A DNA stretch of 38,539 nt from Acholeplasmataceae bacterium. GTDB lineage: Bacteria; Bacillota_I; Bacilli_A; Acholeplasmatales; Acholeplasmataceae. Position numbers and translations under genes: made by a program. Below are positions 1,190 through 36,745 of the stretch, in pieces (the stretch's first letter is position 1; every line of letters begins with the position of its first letter). A model generated the notes under the pieces. That model searched no databases, was not told the DNA's origin, and saw only the letters and a list, made by a program, of their open reading frames with translations. The stretch covers positions 1 to 38,539 of the forward strand of contig JAGYNT010000005.1 of assembly GCA_018399615.1 (NCBI GenBank), written 5' to 3'.

Positions 1190-4100
1190 TCAGCCTTCCT
1201 GATTGAAGACTTCAACCACGACAACCGAGAAACCGGCTGTAAAAATCGGAACCTGTGCGAGAACTTCCAAATATCTCGGCATCGGATGATCCGCTCCCAT
1301 GATTAAGTCCACGGCATCGGCATAATCCATGCCCGACCCCGCGACCTGAAGCGCTTCATAAACGGTAAGGTTGTAGAACCCGGCCAGATAAGCGATATTG
1401 ACGGCTTCCTGTTGTGAAAGCCCGTAGCCCATCGCTTCACCGACCGCCTGCATGAACGCATCGGTCTCGGAGAGAGAACCGACAGGGAAAAGGAAGTTGC
1501 CGTCCATGACACGCGGATCGGTCGGTGCGCTTAGGAAATCGAAGGGACGTTCGATCGTTTCAAGTCCGAGTTCATCGGTCAGTGAAATGCGTACCTCCGC
1601 GCCCGTCGTCGGATTCAATTCGTCGTCCAGGGCACCTTTCGAAGGTTCGGTCAGCATGATGAAATTGATCATCTGCGACGGCAGACCGCTGATCGGATTG
1701 ACGATATCCCTGATGATCGATTTACCCAATGGTGCGATATTCTGCTCGATCGAACTCTTGAGTTGCAGTGCGACAAGCGACATGGCATACGCCTTGAACC
1801 ATCCTTCTTCACCGGAAATCCAGTTGTTGATGACCGTCTCGTTGTCGATGAAAAGCGTCGGATTGGCTATGCCGTCACCTTGCTTGTTGTCGACGAAGTG
1901 AATCGCGGCACCACCGCTTTGTCCGATCAGGGAATTCGTGATCGAAATACCCGTACCACCATGAAGATAGACGCTGTTGGCCCATGAATCATAGACTTCG
2001 ACATAGTCGATGTCCATATATACCGGTTCATCGAGGACTTCATCCTTGGTACCATACGCATTGTCGGTAAAGGCGATCAACGTGAAGCCGACGCGTATGT
2101 TTTCAAAATGACTCGAGCCGTTTCTGACGATGATCCCGTTGTATCCGCCGGAGTTCTCGCTCATCAGCTGTTCCTGACTGGCGATTTCTTCCGCACTCAG
2201 ACCGTAATTGATCGATGGTGTGATGGTATTTCCGATGACGGTCAGATTTCTGATTGAAAGACTGTTGTCATTCAAACCGGGTTTTTCGGCATCGAAGACG
2301 TCATAATAGAAGATCCCCGTTTGTACGTTGATGATCTCGAACGACTGTGCGTATCCGAGTGTCCCCGAACCGCTGTCGGCGTTCATCTTCGGCAATTCGG
2401 AACCATCGATGGTCATGTAGTTCCCATGGATGACGATCTCATCTTCGGATGTGCCGTCATCAAGTCTGCCGTAGACGTTTCCGTAGTAGGTGTTGGTCGC
2501 GGGATTTCCCCTGAGGTTGATCGGTGAACCGTCTTCGTTCATCTGGATCAAAGCCAACTCGGCTTCGATGTTCCGATGGATGTTGATCGCGTGGACATCG
2601 AGATTGCTGTAAAGACTTCTGAGTTCGGTGTTGTCGAAAGCATTGTAGGCATCGTTGACCGAAAATGTGAATTCAAGATCCGAGACCTGCATCAGGTTGG
2701 CCTGATATCGTGGGCTGACGCGCAATGTGAAGGTCAGTCCTTCGGCTTCCGGCGTGAATTGCATCATGTTGTTTTCGAACGCCACATACTCGAGGAGTTC
2801 ATTCCCCTCAAGCGGTGTCGCTTCGTCTTCGAGATAAAAGACGTAATCGAGCAATACGTCCTCGAGTTCGACGCGTTCACCCTGATTGTCGTTGATCCGG
2901 AAATCGAGTTCGAATGCATTCCGATAACCGACGTAATAGGGTTCACCGGTCGTATCCAGGTAGTTGTCGCCGGTCGATTCGGAAAGATAGGTGCTGATCG
3001 ACGAACCGAAACCGAACTGCTTGATGTTCGAGACGACGCGTCCTTCATAGAGATAGGTTTCCTCATCATCCACGGTCATCTCAAACCGGAAGTTTCCGGG
3101 TTCATCGCCGATCGTAAGCGTGTTGTCGGATGCGAGCAGGAATGATCGGCCTTCGATGATCTCGAACTGATAACGATCGGAAAAGTGGTAGGTCATGTTC
3201 GTGTAGAAAATATAGCGCTTGGTCGTCTCGCCGCCGATTTCAACGTCTTCGACGATGAAATAATCATAGATGGCGACACCCGTGACTTCCCCTTCGATCT
3301 CGGTGTCGACCGAATAGAAGACGACATTCGAGTAAGGACCGGTCAGATGATGGACATCATCACCACGGGCTCTGAGGGACACACCGTGGATACCGGGTTC
3401 GAGCAATGTCGAAAACGAGGGATAGAGCGCATGGCCTTCGGGTATCGAGAGCACGTGCATATTCCCATCGACAACGACATCGGTCGAATCGACTACGTAA
3501 CCGACGCCATCGATCAGGAACTGATAGTCAAGCGGACCCGCTCCGTTGATTTCAGCCGGATCGATGACCCAGGAAATCACCAGACCGTCTTCGCTTGAAA
3601 TCACAAGGTTCGTCGGCTGGGCGAATGCTTCCAATACTTCCCACTGGGCATAGACGGTGTTCGAATGTTCGAAACTCGAGAAGAGCATGTCGTCGATCCC
3701 GTATTTCGTCCCACCATCGGGTTGATCGAACCATCCCAGAAAGACGTGTCCGGGCTTGTCGAGCTGCCAGATCAGGGAATCCTCGGTGACGACCTGATCG
3801 CCAGATCCCTGTGTCTTTGAAGCAATGTATTTGATGGCTCCACCATCGACGAATGTGATAGTCTGGATTCTGCTGACATAGTATACGGCGCGAACAATGA
3901 CGCTTTCTTTCAGATTCGTCAGATTCGTGCGATCCCAGCGGGCCTGATAGTCCTCGTCACCGATCAGGATTTCCGGCAGATCACCGGTATAACTGTCATT
4001 GTAATAGAGCAGGTGTTCCTCTTCGATGACATCCCCGGATCCTCCGGCGCTGCTCGGATCCTGAACGAACGTGACCGATAGAATCAGTCGTGTGTAATGG

Positions 4101-5614
4101 ACATCGACATCGATCATGTCCTCGAGCAGATGGAAATCATCCGGATCGTGATAGATCGTGTCCGCCGCGATGAAATAATCGAAGGCATAGCCTTCGAATT
4201 CGACGATCGGCGTGAAAAGCGGGTCATCGGCGACATCGCCGAAACTGTAAGGAATGGGATCCCCATCGCTTTCGATGGCACCCGTTTCGAGATTTTCACG
4301 TTCGAAGACGTAACTGCCGCTGGCATCGATCAACGGAACGTATTTCGCATAGAGATCGGCTCCACCGAGCATCATCGTCGACTGAGGTCCGAAAGAAACG
4401 GAGGAACCGCTGTAATCCTCGTTTTCATACCAACCCGCAAACGCGTGATCGGCGAGGGTCGGTTCTTCCTGTTGACCGATCACACTCTCGTAATCGGCAT
4501 TCAATACCCGCAAGGATTCTCCGTCCGCGAACGCGCCTTCCCCGGCATCGAAGGTAATCGAATAGACGATCGGAACGATGATGGCACGAACTTCCAGGTC
4601 CGTGGTGACCTCGGAATAATCCGTATCCCACGCTTCGAAGAGATAACCCTCTTCGACATGAACGTCCGGTGCGACCGGATTCGATCCGTATTCGACGTCG
4701 AGACTGGCGAGCAAGACGCCATTGTGGTCATAGAAGTCGACCGTGAAAACCAGGATCTGATACACAACCAGGATTTCCGCATCTTCGGTGACGACGAACG
4801 TTAAAAGATCCTCGGAATAGCCGATGAACGCATATCCTTCCCTGCTCGGTTCCTCGGGAACGTCGATCAGGGCGCCATGCGTAACCGTCTGTTCGCTATA
4901 GATCGTTCCCCATTCGTCCTTGATCACGACGTCATAGGTTTTATCCTCATAGACGGCGATGACTTCCATGTCACCGGTAATCCGAGAGAAATCGGTCACG
5001 CTCCACGACCCGACTTTTCCTTCGACTTCGGGAACATCGGGAATGAGAACGAGTTCCTGACCGTGAGCGACTTCACGCGACTGAATGATTTCGGTTCCGA
5101 CATAGAAATCGACCGTATACAAAAACGGGTCGAACGCGAAATAGAGCGTAAGGTCTTCTGCGGGCATGTTCGTACCCTCGAATTCTTCGATCAACGTCCC
5201 ATCTGAGTACCATGCGTCAAATTCATGGCCATCTCTTTCGAGTTCGGGCAACTCCAAAAGCGCACCGAAATCAAGCGTACGCTCGTCATAAACGCCTTCG
5301 TCGACGTCGACGAGCGTCAATTGATAACGGTTTACCGACCATTTGGCATAGATCGTCCGGTTTCGATTGAGCGGTTTCTCGGAATCGAAGGGCTCGGTGA
5401 GCGCTTCGTCCTCATACCATCCGATAAAGGTATGGCCTTCTTTTTCGGGTTCAGGCAACGCATCGAACACGTATCCCTGAACGACGTTCTCATAGGGTAT
5501 GGGTTCGCCGCCGTTGGTCTCGTAATTGAGGCGCACGTAGATCTCGTCGCACGCCGCGAGGCCGAGCATAAGCACGATCAGCAGAATCCCCGTCAAAAGC
5601 ATTCTTTTATTCAT
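1190..5614 (-). CDS. Giant surface lipoprotein: InlB-type repeats plus probable beta-helix
   Basis: The protein has 1474 residues. The start at 5614 is chosen because AAGGAGAG lies 8 nt upstream and the product then begins with a lipoprotein signal ending LGLAAC (Cys22). Residues of about 25-690 hold roughly nine InlB B-repeat/Flg_new-like units, seen as pieces such as GHTFIGWYEDEALTEPF, HAFAGWYENEDYSG and GHVFLGWFDQPDGGTKYG, each followed by a YAKW-like strand. An Fn3-like stretch follows at about 690-790. The region of about 1000-1300 is rich in short Asn/Gly/Ile strands (SIRNLTVIGN, GIIVRNGSSHFENIRVG, SVYLHGGTGISITNS) typical of right-handed parallel beta-helices. No catalytic site is identified. 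It is the last gene of a four-gene unit headed by an ABC transporter and lies 20 nt behind its neighbour. Likely a surface-exposed binding or carbohydrate-interacting protein; the beta-helix and role are inferences. Confidence 0.8.
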   Translation of the reverse strand: MNKRMLLTGILLIVLMLGLAACDEIYVRLNYETNGGEPIPYENVVQGYVFDALPEPEKEGHTFIGWYEDEALTEPFDSEKPLNRNRTIYAKWSVNRYQLTLVDVDEGVYDERTLDFGALLELPELERDGHEFDAWYSDGTLIEEFEGTNMPAEDLTLYFAFDPFLYTVDFYVGTEIIQSREVAHGQELVLIPDVPEVEGKVGSWSVTDFSRITGDMEVIAVYEDKTYDVVIKDEWGTIYSEQTVTHGALIDVPEEPSREGYAFIGYSEDLLTFVVTEDAEILVVYQILVFTVDFYDHNGVLLASLDVEYGSNPVAPDVHVEEGYLFEAWDTDYSEVTTDLEVRAIIVPIVYSITFDAGEGAFADGESLRVLNADYESVIGQQEEPTLADHAFAGWYENEDYSGSSVSFGPQSTMMLGGADLYAKYVPLIDASGSYVFERENLETGAIESDGDPIPYSFGDVADDPLFTPIVEFEGYAFDYFIAADTIYHDPDDFHLLEDMIDVDVHYTRLILSVTFVQDPSSAGGSGDVIEEEHLLYYNDSYTGDLPEILIGDEDYQARWDRTNLTNLKESVIVRAVYYVSRIQTITFVDGGAIKYIASKTQGSGDQVVTEDSLIWQLDKPGHVFLGWFDQPDGGTKYGIDDMLFSSFEHSNTVYAQWEVLEAFAQPTNLVISSEDGLVISWVIDPAEINGAGPLDYQFLIDGVGYVVDSTDVVVDGNMHVLSIPEGHALYPSFSTLLEPGIHGVSLRARGDDVHHLTGPYSNVVFYSVDTEIEGEVTGVAIYDYFIVEDVEIGGETTKRYIFYTNMTYHFSDRYQFEIIEGRSFLLASDNTLTIGDEPGNFRFEMTVDDEETYLYEGRVVSNIKQFGFGSSISTYLSESTGDNYLDTTGEPYYVGYRNAFELDFRINDNQGERVELEDVLLDYVFYLEDEATPLEGNELLEYVAFENNMMQFTPEAEGLTFTLRVSPRYQANLMQVSDLEFTFSVNDAYNAFDNTELRSLYSNLDVHAINIHRNIEAELALIQMNEDGSPINLRGNPATNTYYGNVYGRLDDGTSEDEIVIHGNYMTIDGSELPKMNADSGSGTLGYAQSFEIINVQTGIFYYDVFDAEKPGLNDNSLSIRNLTVIGNTITPSINYGLSAEEIASQEQLMSENSGGYNGIIVRNGSSHFENIRVGFTLIAFTDNAYGTKDEVLDEPVYMDIDYVEVYDSWANSVYLHGGTGISITNSLIGQSGGAAIHFVDNKQGDGIANPTLFIDNETVINNWISGEEGWFKAYAMSLVALQLKSSIEQNIAPLGKSIIRDIVNPISGLPSQMINFIMLTEPSKGALDDELNPTTGAEVRISLTDELGLETIERPFDFLSAPTDPRVMDGNFLFPVGSLSETDAFMQAVGEAMGYGLSQQEAVNIAYLAGFYNLTVYEALQVAGSGMDYADAVDLIMGADHPMPRYLEVLAQVPIFTAGFSVVVVEVFNQEG

Positions 5615-5634: not shown

Positions 5635-6072
5635 CTAGTCTGGGACGATGACGTCGTCCGGCGTTTTGAACCAAAGGATGATCTCCGCTTGATTTTTCGT
5701 GTGATCATCCCAAATCTTGATCGTTACGGTCTGACCGATCGCCTGTGTGTCGTAATAGACATAAACGACCTTCGCCTGCTGGTCGACCTGAACATTCATG
5801 CCCCGGTTGTTCGAACTCGCTTGAATGTCACCTTGGGCCTCCCCGGGTTCGATCACGTATCGGACTTCATAGACGTTGTGTCGTTCCGTGACGACTCCCG
5901 TGACATCCTTGAAACGCTCACCAGCCATGTTCTCCTCGTCGTAGTCGGGAATGAGAATCGTTTCGACGGCTACCGAGCTGCCTCCTTCGGGAAGCGTACC
6001 GAAAACGGCGATCGACATGATCGAGAGCACACTGAACGTGAGTACGGAAAAAAGTATGAGTTTGCGATTCAA
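5635..6072 (-). CDS. Small membrane-anchored secreted protein, unknown function
   Basis: This 145-residue protein has one N-terminal hydrophobic segment (LILFSVLTFSVLSIMSIAVF, about residues 4-24) and an extracellular, beta-rich remainder. TTG at 6072 is the start: AGGAGGTG sits a few bases upstream, and this places the hydrophobic segment right at the N-terminus. A longer reading back to 6183 would run into the coding end of the previous gene. No lipobox cysteine is present, so it is either anchored by an uncleaved signal or cleaved. It lies between the permease (11 nt gap) and the giant lipoprotein (20 nt gap), so a role as accessory factor of the exporter or of lipoprotein display is plausible. 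The family was not recognised. Confidence 0.7.
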   Translation of the reverse strand: MNRKLILFSVLTFSVLSIMSIAVFGTLPEGGSSVAVETILIPDYDEENMAGERFKDVTGVVTERHNVYEVRYVIEPGEAQGDIQASSNNRGMNVQVDQQAKVVYVYYDTQAIGQTVTIKIWDDHTKNQAEIILWFKTPDDVIVPD

Positions 6073-6083
6073 GCGAACACCTC

Positions 6084-7694
6084 CTAAAATTCGATATCCA
6101 TGAAATAAGCCTTGAGAAAACTTTGAAAAAGACGTACTCGAACGACCAGGAATACCGCGGCGAGTCCGAGCAGAATCGTCCATGCCAAAGCGTTGACGAA
6201 GACGAAGAGCACGGCCGAAAGTCCCCCGAAAAGAAAACTCAGAACGAAACCGTTTCGAATCGATCGGCCGATATTCCTGTTTCCGCTCAATGATCCGGTT
6301 GCCGCATAGTCACTCAGCTGCGGATCCAAAAGATCGATCTGAAACGACCAGAGGATATGTCCGCTGTTGATCAGAACGACAAAGACGAACAACAGACCGA
6401 TGTGCAGTTTCGGAAACACCGGCAGAGCCCACATGAACAGCAGGAAACTGAGCGCGATGACGCCGATCGAGAACGCCAGATTGAAGGCGATCTTGGCCCA
6501 TGCCATCTTGGTCGTATCGCTCGGTGCCGTCTTGAAGAGCACGAACTCGCCACCCTCCGTGGAAATCGCGCTCGCGGACGCCGTATTGGCGGCGGTCACG
6601 ATCAGAAGCGCGATGAAAACGTTGAATACGAGGACGAGCTGATTCCCGAACGTACTGCGATTCATGCCCATATATATGTAGTTCAAGACATACATGAAGA
6701 AAGGTAGCGTCAGAAGAATCGCATAGTTTTCCAGCAATTCGTTGGTGCTTCGTCGCGCGATCAGCAGTTCCTTCCGTAAAAACGTCATGAAAATGCTCTT
6801 TTCGGCCATGTTGTCCTTACGATGAACCCGTTCTGTCGCGGTTTCATGCGACGTGCTTGCGAGCTTGAAATAGAGCGGTCTCGCCACGAGAAGGATCAGT
6901 CCCATAAGCGCGAAAACCGTGACGAGAAGCAAAACGTAATTGAAAACGGGGTTCATGCCGTAAAGGAGTTTTCCGATGTTGGTGTAGATCAATCCGTAGT
7001 TCGCGCTCTGCTGCATGAACAGCGTAAGCGAAATGATGAAGGAATTGTAGAGCTGAACGATACGGATCGGCGTCGGAATGCCGGAAACGACACCCCGCAC
7101 CAGAACGAACGCGAAAACGATCAACAAGACGACAAGAAGAAAGGCGATGGTCTGGTGGTTCTTGAGATAATTCTTGATGAAGATCAGCGGCATCGAGAGA
7201 AGTGCGGCAACCGACACCGTCAAGAGCGGCAGGAGAAACAACATGAAAACGATGTTGATGTAATAGAGGATCATGATCTCATTGATGTATCCGAACGCGA
7301 TCAGAACGGGAATGAGCAAGTACAGATTCTTGATGAACTCGCCGATGTAGAACACGGCGAGTTTGCTGATGAAGACCTCGTCGTTTTTCGCCGGGAGCGA
7401 TAACAGAATCGGATTTTCCCGACTCAGATAGAGATCGGTCATGAGCTTGCTCGTCGCCGATACGATTCCGAGTCCTTGCGTGATGATCAGCACGAAGATC
7501 ATGAAATAGTGGTTGACCGGAATATAGAGTATATCGGCGATCACGTGCAGGACGAGTGTCATGACGATCGAGAGGATCGCGATCACGAGCAAACGAAGAC
7601 CGATTCCGGCGAAAAATCGCTTGTGGTCTTCGATCTTGAGATTCATCCGATTGCTCAGTTGTAAACGTATCAGGACACCGATGCGTTTCAGCAT
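6084..7694 (-). CDS. ABC-2 type transporter permease
   Basis: This 536-residue, highly hydrophobic protein has about 12 membrane segments, in two clusters (residues of about 25-275 and 320-525) separated by a charged cytoplasmic stretch with HETATERVHRKD. The length and layout fit the large export-type ABC permeases that pair with a separate ATPase. The start at 7694 has AGGAGA just upstream. The gene follows the ATPase-bearing fusion gene by 12 nt, so the two products very probably form one transporter. Substrate unknown; the co-transcribed surface lipoprotein and anchored protein suggest an envelope substrate. Confidence 0.75.
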   Translation of the reverse strand: MLKRIGVLIRLQLSNRMNLKIEDHKRFFAGIGLRLLVIAILSIVMTLVLHVIADILYIPVNHYFMIFVLIITQGLGIVSATSKLMTDLYLSRENPILLSLPAKNDEVFISKLAVFYIGEFIKNLYLLIPVLIAFGYINEIMILYYINIVFMLFLLPLLTVSVAALLSMPLIFIKNYLKNHQTIAFLLVVLLIVFAFVLVRGVVSGIPTPIRIVQLYNSFIISLTLFMQQSANYGLIYTNIGKLLYGMNPVFNYVLLLVTVFALMGLILLVARPLYFKLASTSHETATERVHRKDNMAEKSIFMTFLRKELLIARRSTNELLENYAILLTLPFFMYVLNYIYMGMNRSTFGNQLVLVFNVFIALLIVTAANTASASAISTEGGEFVLFKTAPSDTTKMAWAKIAFNLAFSIGVIALSFLLFMWALPVFPKLHIGLLFVFVVLINSGHILWSFQIDLLDPQLSDYAATGSLSGNRNIGRSIRNGFVLSFLFGGLSAVLFVFVNALAWTILLGLAAVFLVVRVRLFQSFLKAYFMDIEF

Positions 7695-7706
7695 GACGCG
7701 TATCTC

Positions 7707-9899
7707 CTATTGTTCAAGATGGACTTTACGGACGTTTTTCATGTAGAGCTCTTCGAGCGACGTCCCTTCCTGTTTGAGTTCTTCGAGCGTGTATATGCCG
7801 ATGAGTCGGCCATTGTTGATGATGGCGATGCGGTGACAGATCTTCTCGACGACTTCGATGACGTGACTCGAGAAAAAAACGATATTTCCCTTTTCCGCGT
7901 GTTCCCGCATCGATTCCTTGATCTGATAGGCACTCGTCGGATCGAGTCCGGTCAAGGGCTCATCGAGAATCCAGACCTCGGGTTCATGGATCAAGGAAGC
8001 GATGACCACGAGTTTCTGCTTCATACCGTGCGAATAACTCTTGATTTCCTGGTCGAAGGCATGTTCGAGGTTGAACTGCTTCAAGTACTTGTCCAATCGT
8101 TCTTTTCGGTCCTCCACGCTTACGTGATAGAGGTCGGCGACGTAATCGATGTATTCGCGACCGGTAAGTTTCTCATAGACGGCGTGATTGTCGGAAACGT
8201 AACCGATTCTGAGTTTCGCTTCCAAAGGCTGCGTCCGGATGTCGTAACCGCAGATCTCGATCTCACCTTCGGTAATCGATTGAATGCCGACGAGGCTCTT
8301 GATCGTGGTCGATTTGCCGGCACCGTTATGTCCGAGAAAGCCGAAAACCTCACCCTTGTGAACCTCGAGTGAAAAATCGTCGACCGCTTTTTCTTTGGCA
8401 TTGCCGTATCGCTTGGAAAAATGATTGATTCTGATCATATCGCTACTCTCCGGATTCATGGGTTCACTCAGACTTCGATCGCCGAGCATCGCTTTGAGAC
8501 GCAAGCGCTCCTGCATGTGTTCTTTTTGTTTCAGGTGCAGACGATGATGCCTTTCGACCGTCACCTCAATCGTATCATAGACGACCCACATCATGAACAT
8601 AAGAAAGATAAACGTAAGATAATAGATGATCTGGAACAGATAGAAGAAAGTCAGTTCCAACCCCCATAGATCGATCTCGAACGTGTAATTGTATTGCAGC
8701 TTCCGAGCACCGAAGAGATCGGACAGAAAGTCCGAATAGGTGAAGAAGTAGTCGGTGTTCGCGCCATAGTTTCGAAACCACGTATTCACGATCACGACGA
8801 AGATGAAATAGATGGTGAAGATGATGATGGCGTGAACCATATGCTTGAGCTTCGGTTTCGGAAACGTATGGAGTATGACGGCCAGAAGCGGAATGATCAG
8901 GGCGTAGAGGTGATTGTATCCGAAATGGACGACCGAGAGCCTGAAGATGTCCTGGCTGTAATTCGGCAATATGATCGCGGCGATCGCACCGATCACATTG
9001 GCGAAATAAGCGAAATAGAAGACGCTCTTGATGCGGAACGGGATCGCGATGACAAGAAGGATCACAGCGGTGTTGCAGAGATGCAGGGGTAAACCGTTCA
9101 GTCCCGTTCGACGCAAATAGAAGTACTGGAAGAAAGCGGCGAAGGCGAGAAACGTGACGAAGAGATTCTTTGTGGTCTGACTCTTATTGCGAAACAGATA
9201 AAAGAATCCGATGATCAAAGCGAAGGGAAACCAGATGACGAAGATGTGGGTCAACGTGAAATCCTTCGGGACTTCCCCGTAGTTGCCGAAAAGGTGATAC
9301 AGGAAGCCAAGCGGCATGACGGCGAACGCGGAGAGAAACAAGGTGAGTGCCATGTTTTGAAGTTCGATACGTGTCGGTTTCATCCGCTCCCTGATCAGAA
9401 TCCGAAGATGCATCAGCATCAGAACACCGAAGAGCAACGTCTCGAGCGAAAACTGCAACGCTCGCGTCGAAAAGACAGACTCGTATGTGCCCTCGAAGGC
9501 GATGACGTGCGAGCGGAAAAAGAGAACATTGAGCACGAACACGAGCGGACCGAGAAACCCCAGCAAGGCGTGAACTTCCCGTTTCGGATGAAATGACACG
9601 GCGATCGCACCGGTAATGAACAGCACGGTCAGCCATCTCAAGATCAGAATGAATAAGGTTTTATAAGGCGAAAAGAGCCATGTCGTTTCGGCATCGACAT
9701 CGGTCCTGATATCGATATAAAATATATTGAACGTCTGATCGATCACATCACTTGAAAACAATCTGAAAAGATAGACGGAAAACAACAAAAAAACAAGGAC
9801 CCCAAGCATTGACCGATCGGATATCTTTCTTCGATTTGAGATCAATATGATGCCGATCGAGACGATCAGCGTTAACACAAGGATGATGACGCGTTCCAT
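7707..9899 (-). CDS. YwaF/TMEM164-like membrane domain fused to ABC transporter ATPase
   Basis: The protein has 730 residues. The N-terminal part, about 1-445, holds some twelve membrane segments. Within it, NGLPLHLCNTAVILL (Cys275, His273) followed by VVHFGYNHLYALIIPLLA (His325, His330) is the hallmark of the YwaF/TIGR02206/TMEM164 family, whose human member is reported to be a phospholipid acyltransferase using such a Cys and His. A basic linker (about 446-485) leads into a complete ABC ATPase at about 488-730: Walker A GHNGAGKST (523-531), signature SYSHGMKQK (621-629), Walker B VWILDEP (642-648), D-loop LTGLD and H-loop His679. The ATPase is of the DrrA/CcmA export type and precedes an ABC-2 permease. 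First gene of the operon; a -10 box with TG extension lies upstream at 9937. Both halves are confidently placed; acyltransferase activity in this protein is only inferred. Confidence 0.85.
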   Translation of the reverse strand: MERVIILVLTLIVSIGIILISNRRKISDRSMLGVLVFLLFSVYLFRLFSSDVIDQTFNIFYIDIRTDVDAETTWLFSPYKTLFILILRWLTVLFITGAIAVSFHPKREVHALLGFLGPLVFVLNVLFFRSHVIAFEGTYESVFSTRALQFSLETLLFGVLMLMHLRILIRERMKPTRIELQNMALTLFLSAFAVMPLGFLYHLFGNYGEVPKDFTLTHIFVIWFPFALIIGFFYLFRNKSQTTKNLFVTFLAFAAFFQYFYLRRTGLNGLPLHLCNTAVILLVIAIPFRIKSVFYFAYFANVIGAIAAIILPNYSQDIFRLSVVHFGYNHLYALIIPLLAVILHTFPKPKLKHMVHAIIIFTIYFIFVVIVNTWFRNYGANTDYFFTYSDFLSDLFGARKLQYNYTFEIDLWGLELTFFYLFQIIYYLTFIFLMFMMWVVYDTIEVTVERHHRLHLKQKEHMQERLRLKAMLGDRSLSEPMNPESSDMIRINHFSKRYGNAKEKAVDDFSLEVHKGEVFGFLGHNGAGKSTTIKSLVGIQSITEGEIEICGYDIRTQPLEAKLRIGYVSDNHAVYEKLTGREYIDYVADLYHVSVEDRKERLDKYLKQFNLEHAFDQEIKSYSHGMKQKLVVIASLIHEPEVWILDEPLTGLDPTSAYQIKESMREHAEKGNIVFFSSHVIEVVEKICHRIAIINNGRLIGIYTLEELKQEGTSLEELYMKNVRKVHLEQ

Positions 9900-9936: not shown

Positions 9937-9942
9937 ATTATA
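9937..9942 (-). promoter_or_regulatory. Extended -10 promoter of the fusion-transporter operon
   Basis: On the minus strand the sequence reads TGTTATAAT, a perfect -10 hexamer with the TGn extension, about 40 nt before the ATG at 9899. No good -35 is seen at the expected distance, as is usual for extended -10 promoters. It is followed by AGAAAGGT as a weak ribosome site. Confidence 0.6.
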
Positions 9943-21652: not shown

Positions 21653-24523
21653 TTATTCTTCAGCAGGTACTTCAGTATCAACGAGGAGGTATGCGACATT
21701 GCCGTCATCGAATGTGAAGATGACTTGGTATGTCGTATCCGCTTCAAGACCAGTGAGTGAAACGGCTGCGAGATCGGCGAAGTCTACGACTGCTTCAGTT
21801 GCAGAGTAGTCCGCGTAATCGAGTACTTCAACTTCGGTGACAACGCGTGCGTAGTCATCGTCATTGAGCGTAATGTCGAGTGTCGCACTCGTTTCATCGG
21901 CTACGACTTCGGAATCTGCGATAACTGAAGGTTGCATCCACCATGGTGAGACGGATTGTCCTTCGCGTTCCGGATCTGCCGCATAACCGAAGTTGATGAC
22001 GACTTGGTAGTCTCCAAGATAAGTCGTTGGATAGTCATCGAATGCCGGCAACAAGCCTTCAACCGTTACGGTTTCGCCTTCAGGAACAACATCGACAAGA
22101 CCTTCGACATCGAGATAACCCGCTGCTGGATCATAATACTGTACGGTATAGGTGATGTCTGTGAAGCCTGTGTTGTTGAACTGATCGATCGTGAATGTTG
22201 CAGTCGTCGGTGTGAGTTCGAAGTCCTTGGCTGCCGGAATTTCCGCTTCAGCGCCTTCGGATAGGTAGATTTCACCATTGAGCGCACTTACGATCGCGTC
22301 ATAGGACCAGAGTTCACGAACGGTTTCACCGAGATATGGGTTTTCGTATTGAACTTCGATATTCGGAATCGATGTGTCAATACCCCAGTTGAGCGTGAAG
22401 CCACCACGGTTATCCGATGTGAAGACATCGAGGAAGCTTGCCGCGTCGAGTGTCGAACCACTGATACCACCGATCGAGAGATCGAATTCACCGACCATCA
22501 TGTAGTCATAATAGATCGATGGGAAATCCTTCGGTGTTGGGGTAACTTCGACCTTGATGTTGTGTTCGAAGCTTTGGAAGACGAATTCGAAGGAATCCTG
22601 AATGAATTCACCAAAGAGTTGCTGTGCGACACTACCGCTGAAGATGTTCAGGTCGATCGAGATGACCGTCGGATCAGCTTGAGTACCAGGTTCATAGACG
22701 CCATCGGCGACGAGATCGTCAATTGCCGATTCGAAGTAAGCCTTCGCGAGGTCGGGGTTATACCCGTACGTATCGGTCGACAGACCTGGATCGACGAGTG
22801 CCGATTCCGCAGTGTTACGGAACGGAGTACCGGAAGCCGGTTCAACGAGATACGCATCGGTGAAGAGATATTGTTGCGTCTGGCTCGTCTTCATGACTTC
22901 TTCGGCGAGACGTTCTCTGTCAATCGCGAAGTACATGGCGCGCTTGAAGTCCTGGTTTGCGAGAATCGGTTCTGGCATCCATGTGCTGTCCGGGAATTGT
23001 TCGCGTTGTGCTTCTTCAGTACCGAGACCATTGATCATGATTCGGAATGTGGTTGCACCTGGAACACGCTTGATGAGCGGACTGTTCTTGTATTGGTCAT
23101 AACTTTCGGTCGGTACGGATGCCGCTTCGAGTTTACCTGCAAGGAACTCTTGGAAACGGATTTCGGCATCTTCAATGATACGATATGTCCAATGTGTGAA
23201 GAATGAACGATCGGGATCATGGAAGTTCGGGTTCTTGCTGTAACGTACGATGCTGTCCGGTTCATAGTAATCGAGCTGATATTCACCATTGTAAGCAGTC
23301 GTTTCAGCAGACGTACCGTATTGTTCGCCTACGAGGTCATAGAGATCCAAGTTGATCGGGCCCATGACGAATGATCCGAGCCAATAACGTACATTCCATT
23401 CAGCCATTTCGTTGACGAATTCGAACTCGAGCGTGTAGTCATCGACTGCACGGAGACCGACGTCTTCCCAATCAGCTGTTTCATCACGGAATTCACGTGC
23501 ATTGAGGATACGTTGTGAAGCGGTCAGGAAGTCACCGCCACCGGAGATCGCTCTGAACCAACCTTCGGTAAGGGCGATTCGATACGTTTCGATGAAGTCA
23601 TGCGCATTGATGTGTTCATGTCCTTCTGGGAATCCGGAAGTGTCCGTATCGGGGTGATACGTCCATGTCAGGTCGTCTCTCAGGGAAACACGCCATACGT
23701 TGGCAACTTCGATACCTGTTTCGGTCAATTCCGATTCAAGTGGTTGTGGGTAATCGGAAGCCATCGAAGGCAGCAAGTCATAGCCGTCCATCGCTTCGTT
23801 GAAGTTGTAGTAGTAAGGTGCATCCAAGAAAAGCGTAATGACATCGGAACTCGTTGCGTCGTCATAGATCCATTGTTGGAAAGTCGTTGGATTCTGACCG
23901 AGTGCCGAACGATAGGTGTACTCACCTGCATTACCTGGCTGGTTGTCATCCATGATGACCGTTGAGTCATCCTCGGACATCGTCGCGTAAGACGTACCGA
24001 ATCCCATGACAGGAATATAGTCTTCAACAGGAAGTTGGAGACGGCTGCTGTATAGGTTGAATCCGGCGTTTGCGAAGACAGGAATACCACCGTCCATCGT
24101 ATTCAACAAGTATTTTTCCGCTGCTGCGAAGAATGTGTGACGTAGGTCAGCAGAAGCGAAACGATAGTTGTAGAAACCTGTCGGCAATGTCAACTCGATG
24201 CTGACTACAGTAAGAGTTCTGGCCTCTGTCGCAGTCTTGCCACCGCTATTCGTGACCGTGTAAACGAGCGTGTAAGAGCCATCCTGAGTGAGGTCATACT
24301 CACCAGTGACTTCGATCTCATCCGTAAGGTCACCATCTACTTCATCGGATGCTGTAACGCCTTCCAGAGGGTCGAATTCGCCTCCGACGAAGACTTCAAC
24401 ATCTTCGACACCCGAAAGAACCGGGGGGTCGACTTCAGGATCGGTCGTGTCGTCTACGAGTTCACAAGCCGTAATCCCGAATACCATAAAGGCAACAGTT
24501 AAAAATAAAAATAACTTTTTCAA
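21653..24523 (-). CDS. oppA: Oligopeptide-binding lipoprotein OppA with N-terminal Ig-like domain
   Basis: This 956-residue protein starts with TTG at 24523, with GAGGAGA 8 nt upstream. The lipoprotein signal is MKKLFLFLTVAFMVFGITAC (Cys20). Residues of about 30-108 form a DUF5011-like Ig domain (VDPPVLSGVEDVEVFVGGEF, ending YTVTNSGGKTATE). The following ~650 residues match family 5 solute-binding proteins: DDLTWTYHPDTDTSG, INAHDFIETYRIAL and FKRAMYFAIDRERLAEEV are recognisable. The last ~200 residues add small beta domains (GLEADTTYQVIFTFDDGN). It binds peptides outside the membrane for OppBCDF. Synonymous codon use looks different from its neighbours, as expected for a highly expressed gene. 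Preceded by two promoters and followed by a terminator. Confidence 0.92.
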   Translation of the reverse strand: MKKLFLFLTVAFMVFGITACELVDDTTDPEVDPPVLSGVEDVEVFVGGEFDPLEGVTASDEVDGDLTDEIEVTGEYDLTQDGSYTLVYTVTNSGGKTATEARTLTVVSIELTLPTGFYNYRFASADLRHTFFAAAEKYLLNTMDGGIPVFANAGFNLYSSRLQLPVEDYIPVMGFGTSYATMSEDDSTVIMDDNQPGNAGEYTYRSALGQNPTTFQQWIYDDATSSDVITLFLDAPYYYNFNEAMDGYDLLPSMASDYPQPLESELTETGIEVANVWRVSLRDDLTWTYHPDTDTSGFPEGHEHINAHDFIETYRIALTEGWFRAISGGGDFLTASQRILNAREFRDETADWEDVGLRAVDDYTLEFEFVNEMAEWNVRYWLGSFVMGPINLDLYDLVGEQYGTSAETTAYNGEYQLDYYEPDSIVRYSKNPNFHDPDRSFFTHWTYRIIEDAEIRFQEFLAGKLEAASVPTESYDQYKNSPLIKRVPGATTFRIMINGLGTEEAQREQFPDSTWMPEPILANQDFKRAMYFAIDRERLAEEVMKTSQTQQYLFTDAYLVEPASGTPFRNTAESALVDPGLSTDTYGYNPDLAKAYFESAIDDLVADGVYEPGTQADPTVISIDLNIFSGSVAQQLFGEFIQDSFEFVFQSFEHNIKVEVTPTPKDFPSIYYDYMMVGEFDLSIGGISGSTLDAASFLDVFTSDNRGGFTLNWGIDTSIPNIEVQYENPYLGETVRELWSYDAIVSALNGEIYLSEGAEAEIPAAKDFELTPTTATFTIDQFNNTGFTDITYTVQYYDPAAGYLDVEGLVDVVPEGETVTVEGLLPAFDDYPTTYLGDYQVVINFGYAADPEREGQSVSPWWMQPSVIADSEVVADETSATLDITLNDDDYARVVTEVEVLDYADYSATEAVVDFADLAAVSLTGLEADTTYQVIFTFDDGNVAYLLVDTEVPAEE

Positions 24524-26724: not shown

Positions 26725-27129
26725 TCAGTCAAGAAAGAGTCGTGTTCGAATCAAACTGACGAGCGCGACCTGTAAAAAGAGAAACATCTGAAAAACGGGA
26801 GCAAGCGAAATCTGGCGGAAAAGGATGAGCCAGATGAAAGACAACCCGTCAAGTGCGATCATAACGAGAAGAAGCTTCTTGTACGTGCCATGGATCGCAC
26901 TTCCCTGAAAGCGGTCTTCCTGAACATGCCATGTCCGAAAAAGAATACACGCCAGGACAGTCACGTATAACAGCGGATAGGCCGTTCTGAACAGAATCCG
27001 TTCCTGATCGACATCAAGCGTATCGTAAAAATCGAGTGAGACGAACGAGATCGCCACGAGTGGAACGACCAGAATGACGAGTGCGACGATGACCATGGAT
27101 AAACTCTCGCGGTTTTCATGAAAACTCAC
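26725..27129 (-). CDS. Small membrane protein, unknown function
   Basis: This 134-residue protein has four membrane helices (about 12-31, 47-65, 83-105 and 110-128) joined by short charged loops. GTG at 27129 is the likely start, with AGG at a suitable distance; ATG at 27096 would remove the first eleven residues only. It is the upstream neighbour of the MATE gene (about 70 nt). It lies immediately downstream of a degraded stretch on the same strand, so it could have belonged to a longer operon. No family recognised. Confidence 0.55.
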   Translation of the reverse strand: MSFHENRESLSMVIVALVILVVPLVAISFVSLDFYDTLDVDQERILFRTAYPLLYVTVLACILFRTWHVQEDRFQGSAIHGTYKKLLLVMIALDGLSFIWLILFRQISLAPVFQMFLFLQVALVSLIRTRLFLD

Positions 27130-27139
27130 CTCTTTACCT

Positions 27140-28750
27140 AGGAATCAAAGATTACGTTTGCGCAGTTTCATCTGTTCTTTGAAAAACACATGCGATCGTC
27201 CGCCCCCATTTCATGAGATCGCCCGGCTTAAGATCGATTCGCGATCATAAACGTCGATCCCGTCGACGATATGCGTTTTCGAACAGATACGGTATGACGG
27301 CGTTGAAATCTTCGATATCTAAGGTTTGAACGCATAGAGCCGATGCTGAAAGTTGATTCCTGGAATATGGCGATGCACGCGACCGCCACCGCCGACAGAA
27401 GACTCCAGTCGCCGAAGGCGCCAATCATCGGTATCCTCTTGAGACATACGTCACCGGCGTTGTGCCTGTGTACGTTGATCTGCGTCATTAAATCGAAAAG
27501 ATCAGTCTCAAGTATTTCAGCAGTTTTCCGCGAAATACCATCGAGTTTGCTCCATAGGCAAGCCGGTTCTGGCCTCGTCAACGTATCCATAGGCAAAGCT
27601 TTCTGTATGCCCATTGATAAGGCTTCAACCGCCTGATCAATATGAGCCTGCCGTAATCGATCAACTGCAGAATCATGAAGATGACCGCTCCCAGGAGAAC
27701 GATAGAGGACGCGATCGCCGCCGATGGCGAAGTTGACTGTCGAAGAACGGCGAAGACCATGATTGAGAAAACTGGGATAGCGATCGCTTCGATTCGCCGA
27801 AAAATCTCGATGGTCGCCGTCAGCAGAACGACCAGAAGCCCGAGAAAATCAGGATTCAAATCCAGACCGACTCGAAAAAAGTGAAGCACGCTCGAGGCCT
27901 GCGTTCCGTAATCGCATTGGAAGCCGGAATACAGTCCAATGAAAACTGTATAAGGCCACTGGTATCGCTTCATGGCGAAATCACGGATGTAATGCAGATC
28001 AACTGAACTGGGAAACAGAGTCACATGATATAGGATATACGCCCATGACATAATCAAGGCTCGTCACGAACTGGATCATCCGCGATCCCGAATTCAGAGC
28101 GATATTGCGCGTGTACCGCGAACATGTGCCCAAGTGTCCCTTGCCCCTTCGTGCTCACGGTCGACAACGACGCAATTACTGATGGCGAGTCCGATGGAAA
28201 AAGAGCGCGACCGCGACACCCAGACGAATCGAATAGGACTCGATCCACGAGTTCAGGCCGGCCCGGTCCCCGTAGATGATCGATTGAGAGTCTTCGCCAT
28301 CGCCTCATAAATAAGGCGAGCGATGTGCCATTTGAGTTACAACCAGCGAATCTTCCAGAGTCGTGACGAGTGCCAGAACTCGCGTAAGGAACAAGCGCAG
28401 GCCCTTCGTCGAAATATCTGGTGTAGAGAACGTCCGTCGAGTCTTACTGATATCCTAAAGAGGACGCACGCAACAAGATGCTTTGAGCGCTGAACGCATC
28501 ATCGAGTGTTGACGATCGTAAGAAAACATCTGGCTTCGGGATATTTCGCGCCATCGGAAGTGACTGCAGTTCGATTGTTTTTGTCTTCCAAAAACCAGAG
28601 ACCAATCGTCATTGAGTTCGGTCACCGTGCTCATGCCGAGTCGTTGGTGATTGCGCCGCTGAAATAGCAATCCCGAAATGAACGTGGAAGCTGTGATCAG
28701 GTCAGGATATAGGGCATATGGAATTTCTGCGCATCCGTGGTTCCTCCGCA
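27140..28750 (-). pseudogene. Degraded or error-ridden minus-strand membrane protein gene(s)
   Basis: No intact gene covers this stretch. Minus-strand fragments in shifting frames look protein-coding. The best is 27578-28057, 159 codons with hydrophobic helices (LLVVLLTATIEIFRRIEAIAI, IVLLGAVIFMILQLID) around YTVFIGLYSGFQCDYG. Upstream of it, 28054-28308 ends in VHAQYRSEFGIADDPVRDEP and appears to continue into it after a frame change. Downstream, 27228-27614 carries a further hydrophobic piece (LLSAVAVACIAIFQ). At the far end another frame reads DGIDVYDRESI, and after further shifts FFKEQMKLRKRN before a stop near 27150. This is best explained as one or two membrane protein genes broken by several small indels. 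The family was not identified. Confidence 0.45.
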
Positions 28751-28856
28751 CTTTTTAGAACAAATCCTCGATCAGCGAATCAGGGACATGGTATGTCCGC
28801 CGCTTATTGTTCATCGGACATCCGAAATCCTTGTGAAATCAGGATTCGCCGGCAGC

Positions 28857-34684: not shown

Positions 34685-34762
34685 TGTATTGTGAGTCATT
34701 AACTTTTCCCTGTTTCAACCGGGTAACATCTCTTCATGGCTCTACGATCATGCGTCGCTGTC

Positions 34763-34882
34763 TTATTCGTCTTCTTCGTCTTCCTCTTCGTCTCCCTCTT
34801 CTTCGTCCTCTTCTTCTTCTTCCTCTTCTTCGTCCTCTTCTTCGTCTTCCTCTTCTTCTTCGTCTTCCTCTTCTTCTTCGTC
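34763..34882 (-). repeat. GAA/GAC/GAG trinucleotide-like tract coding an acidic tail
   Basis: About 40 consecutive minus-strand codons are GAA, GAG or GAC (one GGA) before TAA. This is a Glu/Asp tail matching the style of the tail encoded at 36506-36600. On the plus strand the same bases give a Phe/Leu/Val-rich frame, which is an artefact. Confidence 0.8.
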
Positions 34883-35196: not shown

Positions 35197-35910
35197 TCAG
35201 GTCTGTTCGTCATTTTCAATCTCATAAACGGATTCAACGCGTCGATTGCCGTCATAAGCCTTGAACGCGATCTTTTCTTCCCCTTCGTCGACTTCTTTCT
35301 TTCCTTCGACATCGTACGTCCTTGACCCGGTTATGAGAATGCCTTCGAGTTCGTACTCCTCGGATTCATCGGTCTTTTGCGAAAGATTGAAATGCATGAC
35401 ATAAGTCGTCGGATTCCCGAGCAGATTCCTCGTTTCAAATGAAATGTAGGCGTCATACTGATCGTACTCGGAAACGCCCGTTGAAACATCGAGGTCGCTC
35501 GAAAGCAACTGATCGACCGCTTTCAAATAGGGTTTGACATACTCGATGGCCGGTTTTTCTTCCGCACTCAAAAGAACGTTTTGTCCTTGCAGCAACTCAT
35601 TCGTCGAAAAGCCCGACAGGATGGAAACCGATGAAACGGCTGAAAACGAGATCACTTCATTGTCGTTTTTCAGAAGTACTCCGGGACCGGGCGGATCAAC
35701 AACCGGTGCGGAGAACAGGGAAAATGCGAGCACGATAACCATGACCGCCATGGCTGTGCCCAAGGCATAACGCAAGAACGGTTTCGGCTTTCTTTGCAAA
35801 ACGACTTCGTCCTTCGCCTCGGCAAAAGGGAAGTCGATTTTAGGAGCCGACTTCGGAATATGCGATTCGATTTGTCGTTTCATGATTCGTCTGATCTCAC
35901 GCTTTTTCAT
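35197..35910 (-). CDS. Membrane-anchored ectodomain protein, putative sigma factor regulator
   Basis: This 237-residue protein has a basic cytoplasmic N-terminus (MKKREIRRIMKRQIESHIPK), one membrane helix (about 47-68) and an extracellular domain of about 170 residues. The ectodomain is paralogous to the lipoprotein encoded at 36711-37511: both share SFxAxxxxS, ETRNLLGNPTTYVMHFN / EVRGLLGETEQYVMHYN and GKKEVDEGEEKIAF / GKREVEEGEEEIEF. The ATG overlaps the sigma factor stop (ATGA). Position, topology and coupling are those of an anti-sigma factor, although no zinc-binding anti-sigma motif is seen. The C-terminus is probably cut short by a frameshift. Confidence 0.65.
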   Translation of the reverse strand: MKKREIRRIMKRQIESHIPKSAPKIDFPFAEAKDEVVLQRKPKPFLRYALGTAMAVMVIVLAFSLFSAPVVDPPGPGVLLKNDNEVISFSAVSSVSILSGFSTNELLQGQNVLLSAEEKPAIEYVKPYLKAVDQLLSSDLDVSTGVSEYDQYDAYISFETRNLLGNPTTYVMHFNLSQKTDESEEYELEGILITGSRTYDVEGKKEVDEGEEKIAFKAYDGNRRVESVYEIENDEQT

Positions 35911-36422
35911 TCGATCCCCTCATACTTCCTTAAAACCTTCAATGCCTGATGATAGAGCCAGATGACCGTGCCGAGCGGTTTGTCGAGCACGCGTGCTATA
36001 TCCTTGAACTTCATGTTGTCAACGATCTTGAGAAGGACGACGGTTCGCTCTTCGGAATCGAGAACATCGAGCATCGCCTCGAACCGAGCGGCTTCATCAG
36101 GCCCCGTCTCGATGCTCGTCTGCCGATTGTCATAGTCCTCCTGATCCATATGAAAAACCCGTTTTTCCCGACGATAGTAGTCGATCGCCATGTGCTTCGC
36201 GATCGTCAACAACCAATTGTTGAAATTCGTTTTCTCCTGGTATTGACCGATCGATTCCATCATTTTCATGTAAACGTCCTGCATGATGTCTTCCGTGGCC
36301 GGATGACTTCTGACGATCGAAAAGATCATCGAATAGACGCCTCTTTTCGTTTGTTGGTATACGTATTCGAATGCCGATTCACGCTTGTTTCTGAGCGCTT
36401 TGATTACGTCTTGATCGATCAT
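35907..36422 (-). CDS. ECF-type RNA polymerase sigma factor
   Basis: This 171-residue protein has region 2 (SMIFSIVRSHPATEDIMQDVYMKM, with the expected aromatic and acidic residues, then NFNNWLLTIAKHMAIDYYR) and region 4 (LDSEERTVVLLKIVDNMKFKDIA followed by the helix-turn-helix RVLDKPLGTVIWLYHQALKVL). Regions 1 and 3 are absent, as in extracytoplasmic-function sigma factors. It is translationally coupled to the downstream membrane protein, its likely regulator. The ribosome site AAGAGG lies 9 nt upstream. An inverted repeat with a -10 hexamer lies just before it and may carry its promoter. Confidence 0.9.
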   Translation of the reverse strand: MIDQDVIKALRNKRESAFEYVYQQTKRGVYSMIFSIVRSHPATEDIMQDVYMKMMESIGQYQEKTNFNNWLLTIAKHMAIDYYRREKRVFHMDQEDYDNRQTSIETGPDEAARFEAMLDVLDSEERTVVLLKIVDNMKFKDIARVLDKPLGTVIWLYHQALKVLRKYEGIE

Positions 36423-36505: not shown

Positions 36506-36745
36506 TTACTCTTGTTCTTCTCGTTCGTCTTCCTCATCATCGTCATCATCTTCGTCTTCGTCATCTTCTTCTTCATCGTCTTCATCGTCGTCGTCATCGA
36601 AGTCTCTGTCGCTACGCTTTTCATAGGCCTCATCATCATCCGGATCGACGTATAGCTGGTAATAGGTTTCACCGGTTACGTCATCGATCATCACGGCCAC
36701 GACGATCGCCCTATTGACGCCATCGATTTCTCCATCGAATCTTCG
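36506..36745 (-). pseudogene. Acidic C-terminal tail of the lipoprotein gene, in another frame
   Basis: One frame off the upstream lipoprotein gene, this stretch reads RFDGEIDGVNRAIVVAVMI, then DDVTGETYYQLYVDPDDDE, and ends in about 35 residues that are nearly all Asp or Glu before TAA. There is no ribosome site for independent translation, and the match to the tail of the paralogous gene shows it belongs to the preceding protein. The frame switch must lie between about 36713 and 36745. Confidence 0.65.

Follow-up and report, generated by a model that had tools for sequence, protein, structure and literature searches.

Gram-positive bacteria use several unrelated enzymes to tailor lipoprotein ends; one of these, LhaT (YpjA, DUF1405), the lipoprotein N-acetyltransferase of Bacillus, works at the outer surface and draws on an acetyl donor carried by a lipid; how this donor crosses the membrane is an open question (PMC12345273). 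TMEM164, which transfers an acyl chain between phospholipids (PMC10474074), has been placed with LhaT in one superfamily, ATGY (PMC12345273). Lnt, LnsAB, and Lit carry out the type of reaction proposed below, i.e., transfer of an acyl group from a membrane donor to the N-terminal cysteine of a lipoprotein; no sequence match between these enzymes and the protein described here was found. We know of no ABC ATPase carried by any of the three. LolCDE provides a functional analogy, as an ABC motor that handles lipoproteins on the outward side of the cytoplasmic membrane, but has a permease of another family, no enzyme domain, and a diderm setting. EcsAB of Firmicutes includes EcsA, the closest solved fold to the nucleotide-binding domain (NBD) described here, while the permease of our locus is PF16949-type. 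To our knowledge, EcsAB has no YwaF domain and no giant partner.

The window (i.e., the whole 38,539-nt stretch of Acholeplasmataceae DNA analyzed here) contains a gene in which a YwaF/TMEM164-like membrane domain is fused to an ABC ATPase. The encoded protein resembles the TMEM164/YwaF family in scoring above the curated threshold of PF14808 and in having His218, Cys275, and His330 in common with standalone members; it differs in having six additional N-terminal helices, a thirteenth helix that leads into the ABC ATPase, and a fixed partnership of four genes. With LhaT, it would share action on lipoproteins at the outer face and, by way of TMEM164, the ATGY grouping (PMC12345273); however, LhaT is a small six-helix enzyme without a motor, and the kinship of the window protein to LhaT rests on the grouping made in the literature, as no DUF1405 match to the fusion protein was obtained in the Pfam and NCBIfam scans. 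The parts each come from known families, and their fixed combination appears to be new; literature searches by family accession and by system, with subscription literature outside their reach, found no description of the fusion or of the four-gene kit.

The fusion gene and its predicted topology

Relatives were collected by scanning prokaryote genomes, one for each species, which gave 266, of which the best 80 were fetched (L025–L104); the testable set comprises the 78 of these best 80 in which the gene is uncut at its 3′ end. Features of the fusion gene are as follows.

7707..9899, minus strand: gene 1, YwaF/TMEM164-like membrane domain fused to an ABC ATPase (730 aa)
9264..9899, minus strand: TM1–6, the N-terminal six helices (residues 1–212), without catalytic residues (AlphaFold2 secondary structure)
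8565..9260, minus strand: TMEM164/YwaF-like core, TM7–12 and the membrane part of TM13 (residues 214–445; PF14808)
9246..9248, minus strand: His218 codon, outer end of TM7 (invariant, 78/78)
9075..9077, minus strand: Cys275 codon (LPLHLC), outer end of TM9 (invariant, 78/78)
8910..8912, minus strand: His330 codon, outer half of TM11 (invariant, 78/78)
7710..8438, minus strand: ABC ATPase (residues 488–730; motifs and ABC_tran)
9937..9942, minus strand: weak candidate for an extended −10 element (TGTTATAAT), 37 bp upstream of the fusion ATG

The fusion frame runs from an ATG at 9899 to a stop at 7707, confirming the original prediction of one uninterrupted 730-residue frame; a search of the source genome (a draft of 1.37 Mb in 184 contigs, 67% complete) recovered it as a single open frame with no internal stop. 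Assignment of the membrane part to the YwaF/TMEM164 family was borne out by Pfam, with PF14808 (TMEM164) matching residues 214–437 (E = 4.8e-14; 52.8 bits, gathering score 25). TIGR02206 (NCBIfam intg_mem_TP0381) also matched the fusion, at 45.8 bits and thus under its curated cut-off of 75, which places the fusion outside the core TIGR02206 subfamily, as a relative rather than a core member. The AlphaFold2 model (59 sequences; pLDDT 89.8, pTM 0.79) contains 13 long helices, the thirteenth continuing into the ATPase, rather than the twelve originally proposed, and the proposed YwaF likeness of the whole membrane part holds for TM7–12 but not for TM1–6. TM1–6 and TM7–12 showed a weak in-register similarity that was not significant (hhalign probability 14%, E = 0.002); TM1–6 may possibly be an old internal duplicate of TM7–12 that has lost the catalytic residues.

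The ABC ATPase, matched by ABC_tran at residues 507–649 (E = 6.3e-27), is complete, as had been predicted, with a Walker A motif (GHNGAGKST), signature (YSHGM), Walker B motif (WILDEP), and H-loop (SSH) whose columns are near-invariant in aligned relatives. A PDB fold search with the whole fusion model was dominated by ABC ATPases, with none of the reported matches for the membrane half; the nearest solved fold to the NBD was EcsA (9a6w_B, E = 1.2e-19), and ABCA lipid exporters and LptB were also among the matches, folds that any ABC ATPase would match. The membrane domain, used as a single sequence and as a profile, had no match among PDB sequences. The candidate −10 element was not picked by the consensus scan, and the promoter and terminator scan yielded no more sites than were found in shuffled sequence.

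Across the 78 fusions, His218, Cys275, and His330 are each present in all 78 and His273 in 77, while His325 is kept in just 22 (28%) and is not a hallmark. Two of the originally named residues, the Cys275 of LPLHLC and His330, therefore stand, whereas His325 does not, and the invariant His218 had not been named. The same three invariant residues are found in 12/12 standalone YwaF rows, two of which are copies of one gene. Lysine and arginine are concentrated in all loops predicted to lie inside and are rare in almost every outer loop, following the positive-inside pattern. Given a cytosolic ATPase, the N-terminus of the fusion is predicted to lie outside, and His218, Cys275, and His330 to point towards the outer face; the model and the charge rule both show this predicted outward orientation.

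Partner genes, distribution, and origin of the fusion

The window carries, all on the minus strand and in this order, the fusion, a permease, a small protein, and a giant surface protein; successive genes are 12, 11, and 20 bp apart and have good ribosome sites.

6084..7694, minus strand: gene 2, PF16949-type ABC permease of 536 aa (12-bp gap; ribosome site AGGAG)
5635..6072, minus strand: gene 3, one-helix protein of approximately 145 aa with an extracytoplasmic Ig-like (Big_2-like) domain (11-bp gap)
1190..5614, minus strand: gene 4, giant lipoprotein of approximately 1474 aa (20-bp gap; ATG after AGGAG)
5549..5551, minus strand: lipobox cysteine codon of gene 4 (MNKRMLLTGILLIVLMLGLAAC), read from the sequence
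1193..3073, minus strand: conserved C-terminal domain of gene 4, a predicted right-handed beta-helix (AlphaFold2)

Gene 2 agrees with the original description of the next gene as an ABC permease, matching PF16949 at 27.2 bits (cut-off 25.7); PF16949 was found in 19 of 30 permease relatives (E up to 0.01), no Pfam match to the EcsB family was reported among these 30, and the permease profile gave a single chance-level match in the PDB. Gene 3 starts with TTG after AGGAGG, and its single helix is N-terminal. The copy in the window has no Pfam match, and Big_2 matches were obtained for 6 of 54 relatives; at loci where the profile missed the small protein, a similar open reading frame is present in the gap.

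Gene 4 of the window has a lipobox (LGLAAC), List_Bact repeats, and the C-terminal beta-helix domain. The lipobox column contains Cys in at least 90% of 40 aligned relatives, and a script detected a lipobox in 61/69 giants as compared to 37/547 other (background) ORFs, rising to about 66/69 giants once the script misses were inspected by eye. Among the eight misses, four (L054, L061, L069, and L070) have a recognizable near-consensus cysteine and one (L038) is frame-shifted; in the remaining three (L052:12486–15554, L055:13838–16894, and L077:5869–8904), the small protein and the giant are fused into one helix-anchored protein without a lipobox, suggesting that the two act together. The fusion enzymes of these three loci keep Cys275 and His330. 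Both Lgt (PF01790, E = 1.2e-53) and Lsp (PF01252, E = 5.6e-29) are encoded in the source genome. A lipidated partner, at which the original prediction had hinted without connecting it to any gene, is likely, in the form of the giant lipoprotein three genes downstream. The N-terminal part of the giants is variable, with List_Bact, Big_3, or InlB-type repeats, while the C-terminal domain is conserved, as held-out tests indicated; for gene 4, this domain was modeled by AlphaFold2 with a pLDDT of 91.5 and a pTM of 0.92. A fold search with the giant head gave weak PDB resemblances to the SRRP adhesin and other beta-helix adhesins and to pectin-acting enzymes, none below E = 1e-3. Complete giants in the fetched loci range from 368 to 2071 aa; a giant frame of 3321 aa adjoins the operon in another genome (G064, C6:99042–100697).

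The four genes form a kit that is found in fixed order and co-occurs across genomes. The in-frame fusion into the ABC ATPase is present in 78/78 testable relatives from the best 80 of 266, the same PF16949-type permease comes next in all 78, and wherever the contig goes on, an Ig-like one-helix protein of approximately 150 aa and then a giant follow, as in the window. The view that the two halves are normally separate proteins is thus correct for ordinary YwaF, but not for the 13-helix subfamily, in which fusion is the rule and one genome is split. Hosts among the best 80 include Acholeplasma (with the cultured A. oculi ATCC 27350), Izemoplasmatales, many uncultured Clostridia, and Christensenella-type gut bacteria; the fusion was also found in several relatives within the same taxonomic family. 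Co-occurrence was assessed in 395 genomes of the class. In 37 of them, the complete membrane domain was matched strongly, and almost all of the matching frames are approximately 700–850 aa long (the exceptions being contig fragments and one split form); weaker matches are almost all ordinary standalone YwaF proteins of approximately 230–300 aa. Strong matches to the beta-helix domain of the giant were confined to genomes that have the membrane domain, 33/37 of these as against 0/358 of the others (Fisher p = 5e-44, which overstates independence because the sampled genomes are related, although 33 versus 0 is still sharp). Among the four genomes without the giant's domain, one (G268) carries a divergent giant at the corresponding place, one (G014) has a giant gene truncated by the contig end, and one (G496) has its membrane domain split across two contig ends. 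Two operon copies lie in tandem at L139 (G219); at L140 (G263), two consecutive giant genes follow one operon, and a second copy of the fusion is found elsewhere on the contig. Searches of viral contigs, plasmids, and phages found no relatives, and PADLOC gave no match for any of the four genes (ATPase half excluded), indicating that the kit is not a phage, a plasmid, or a known defense system. PHROGs gave one marginal match (E = 0.005).

The split form, L135:7960–15479 in G268, has a 493-aa membrane domain and a 238-aa ATPase encoded by adjacent, slightly overlapping genes; after these come the genes for the permease, an Ig-like protein of 323 aa, and a lipoprotein of 907 aa. In a tree rooted with standalone relatives of the 13-helix type, L135 branches outside all fusions, which suggests that the operon association is older than the fusion. 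Probably, the operon already existed when the two halves became joined, in a single event, although the rooting behind this order depends on long branches and a single split genome. L135 also offers a naturally occurring control for the contribution of the fusion. Standalone proteins of approximately 410 aa that match most of the membrane domain were found at L136:7621–8865, L137:7057–8289, and L138:6504–7733; no ATPase is attached to them, and their surroundings lack the permease, small, and giant genes.

Candidate functions of the four-gene operon

We infer the chemistry, substrate, and transport discussed here; the sequence offers no clue to what is transported. In the reading that we favor, with a rough probability of 0.4, the fusion would be the core of a four-component machine, in which an outward-facing acyltransferase and an ABC motor serve the giant lipoprotein or nearby lipids. 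The predicted acyltransferase, of the TMEM164/YwaF/LhaT (ATGY) type, would take an acyl group from a membrane lipid in the outer leaflet and pass it to the anchor of the giant, i.e., the N-terminal cysteine left free after the action of Lgt and Lsp; alternatively, the acceptor could be a lipid needed for holding or releasing the giant. The ATPase and permease would together make up a transporter that supplies the outer leaflet with the acyl-donor lipid or, alternatively, drives the handover of the modified giant, and the small Ig-like protein may dock the giant to the complex. The helix-anchored giants of L052, L055, and L077 accompany enzymes that keep their catalytic residues, so that lipoprotein N-acylation cannot be the only job of this putative machine, and three standalone YwaF genes elsewhere in the source genome indicate that the chemistry is not unique to it. 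The original interpretation, that with an active Cys/His pair a lipid acyltransferase would be hard-wired to a transporter motor, hinting at a machine that modifies and moves a lipid or lipidated substrate, is partly supported: the family, ATPase, permease, and Cys/His pair hold, and His325 and the twelve helices do not. A narrower version, in which an ATP-driven, outward-acting lipoprotein acyltransferase with enzyme and motor in one polypeptide is devoted to a single giant beta-helix lipoprotein, and which would add a new kind of machine to the envelope of wall-less and low-GC Gram-positives, is put forward here only tentatively; if true, it would couple the supply of a lipid donor across the membrane to the maturation of a surface protein.

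The fusion and the co-occurrence tie the poorly understood YwaF/TMEM164 enzymes to a giant lipoprotein, and thereby to a testable substrate. If a motor is indeed joined to an enzyme of this kind, the question of donor crossing becomes directly testable, and the presence of the operon in a cultured species, A. oculi ATCC 27350, makes its function accessible to experiment.

Retention of the catalytic residues alongside non-lipidated giants (L052, L055, and L077) keeps a second explanation close, namely a lipid-remodeling flippase in which ordinary phospholipids or glycolipids are re- or de-acylated by the YwaF part and flipped by the ABC part; the giant would then be a receptor, sink, or beneficiary whose own anchor is unmodified. 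This explanation, which we regard as possible though rather doubtful, agrees with the shift of acyl chains between phospholipids by TMEM164 (PMC10474074, PMC12345273) and with the ABCA lipid exporters and LptB among the NBD fold matches, although these are expected for any ABC ATPase. It leaves unexplained both the lipobox in about 66/69 giants and the fact that the giant's domain was never seen without the machine (0/358).

The strict co-occurrence with one giant surface protein, the small–giant fusions, and the weak similarity of the beta-helix head to the SRRP adhesin could also point to a platform for the assembly or secretion of a giant adhesin, with the YwaF fold mainly serving as a scaffold and the ABC motor driving folding, surface release, or anchoring. 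SRRP adhesins of lactobacilli are a class with their own dedicated export route. A scaffold, however, would need no invariant His218, Cys275, and His330, which are retained in 78/78 fusions and are common to standalone YwaF, making a platform of this kind unlikely.

It is less probable still, and in our judgment quite improbable, that the locus encodes an Ecs-like peptide exporter, in which the ABC part would clear signal or other peptides released by processing of the giant, with YwaF as an accessory. In B. subtilis, Ecs has been linked both to protein secretion and to intramembrane proteolysis (PMC2996298), and EcsA is the closest solved NBD; however, NBD similarity alone is a weak pointer to substrate, and the permease matches PF16949, with no EcsB match in 30 members. 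Finally, an assembly error or chance read-through of two ordinary genes, conceivable for a source that is a fragmented draft (184 contigs, 67% complete), was rejected and can be ruled out because the same in-frame fusion occurs in all 78 testable loci, from many separate assemblies that include A. oculi ATCC 27350.

Other features of the window

A run of short minus-strand frames at 26725–28751 possibly represents a decayed region; three frames tested within 27231–28308 had no Pfam match. At 21653–24523, an SBP_bac_5 solute-binding protein follows a surface Ig-like domain in one lipobox-bearing protein. Triplet-rich tandem repeats were found at 34761–34882 and 36534–36598, near a gene encoding an ECF-type sigma factor (35907–36422).
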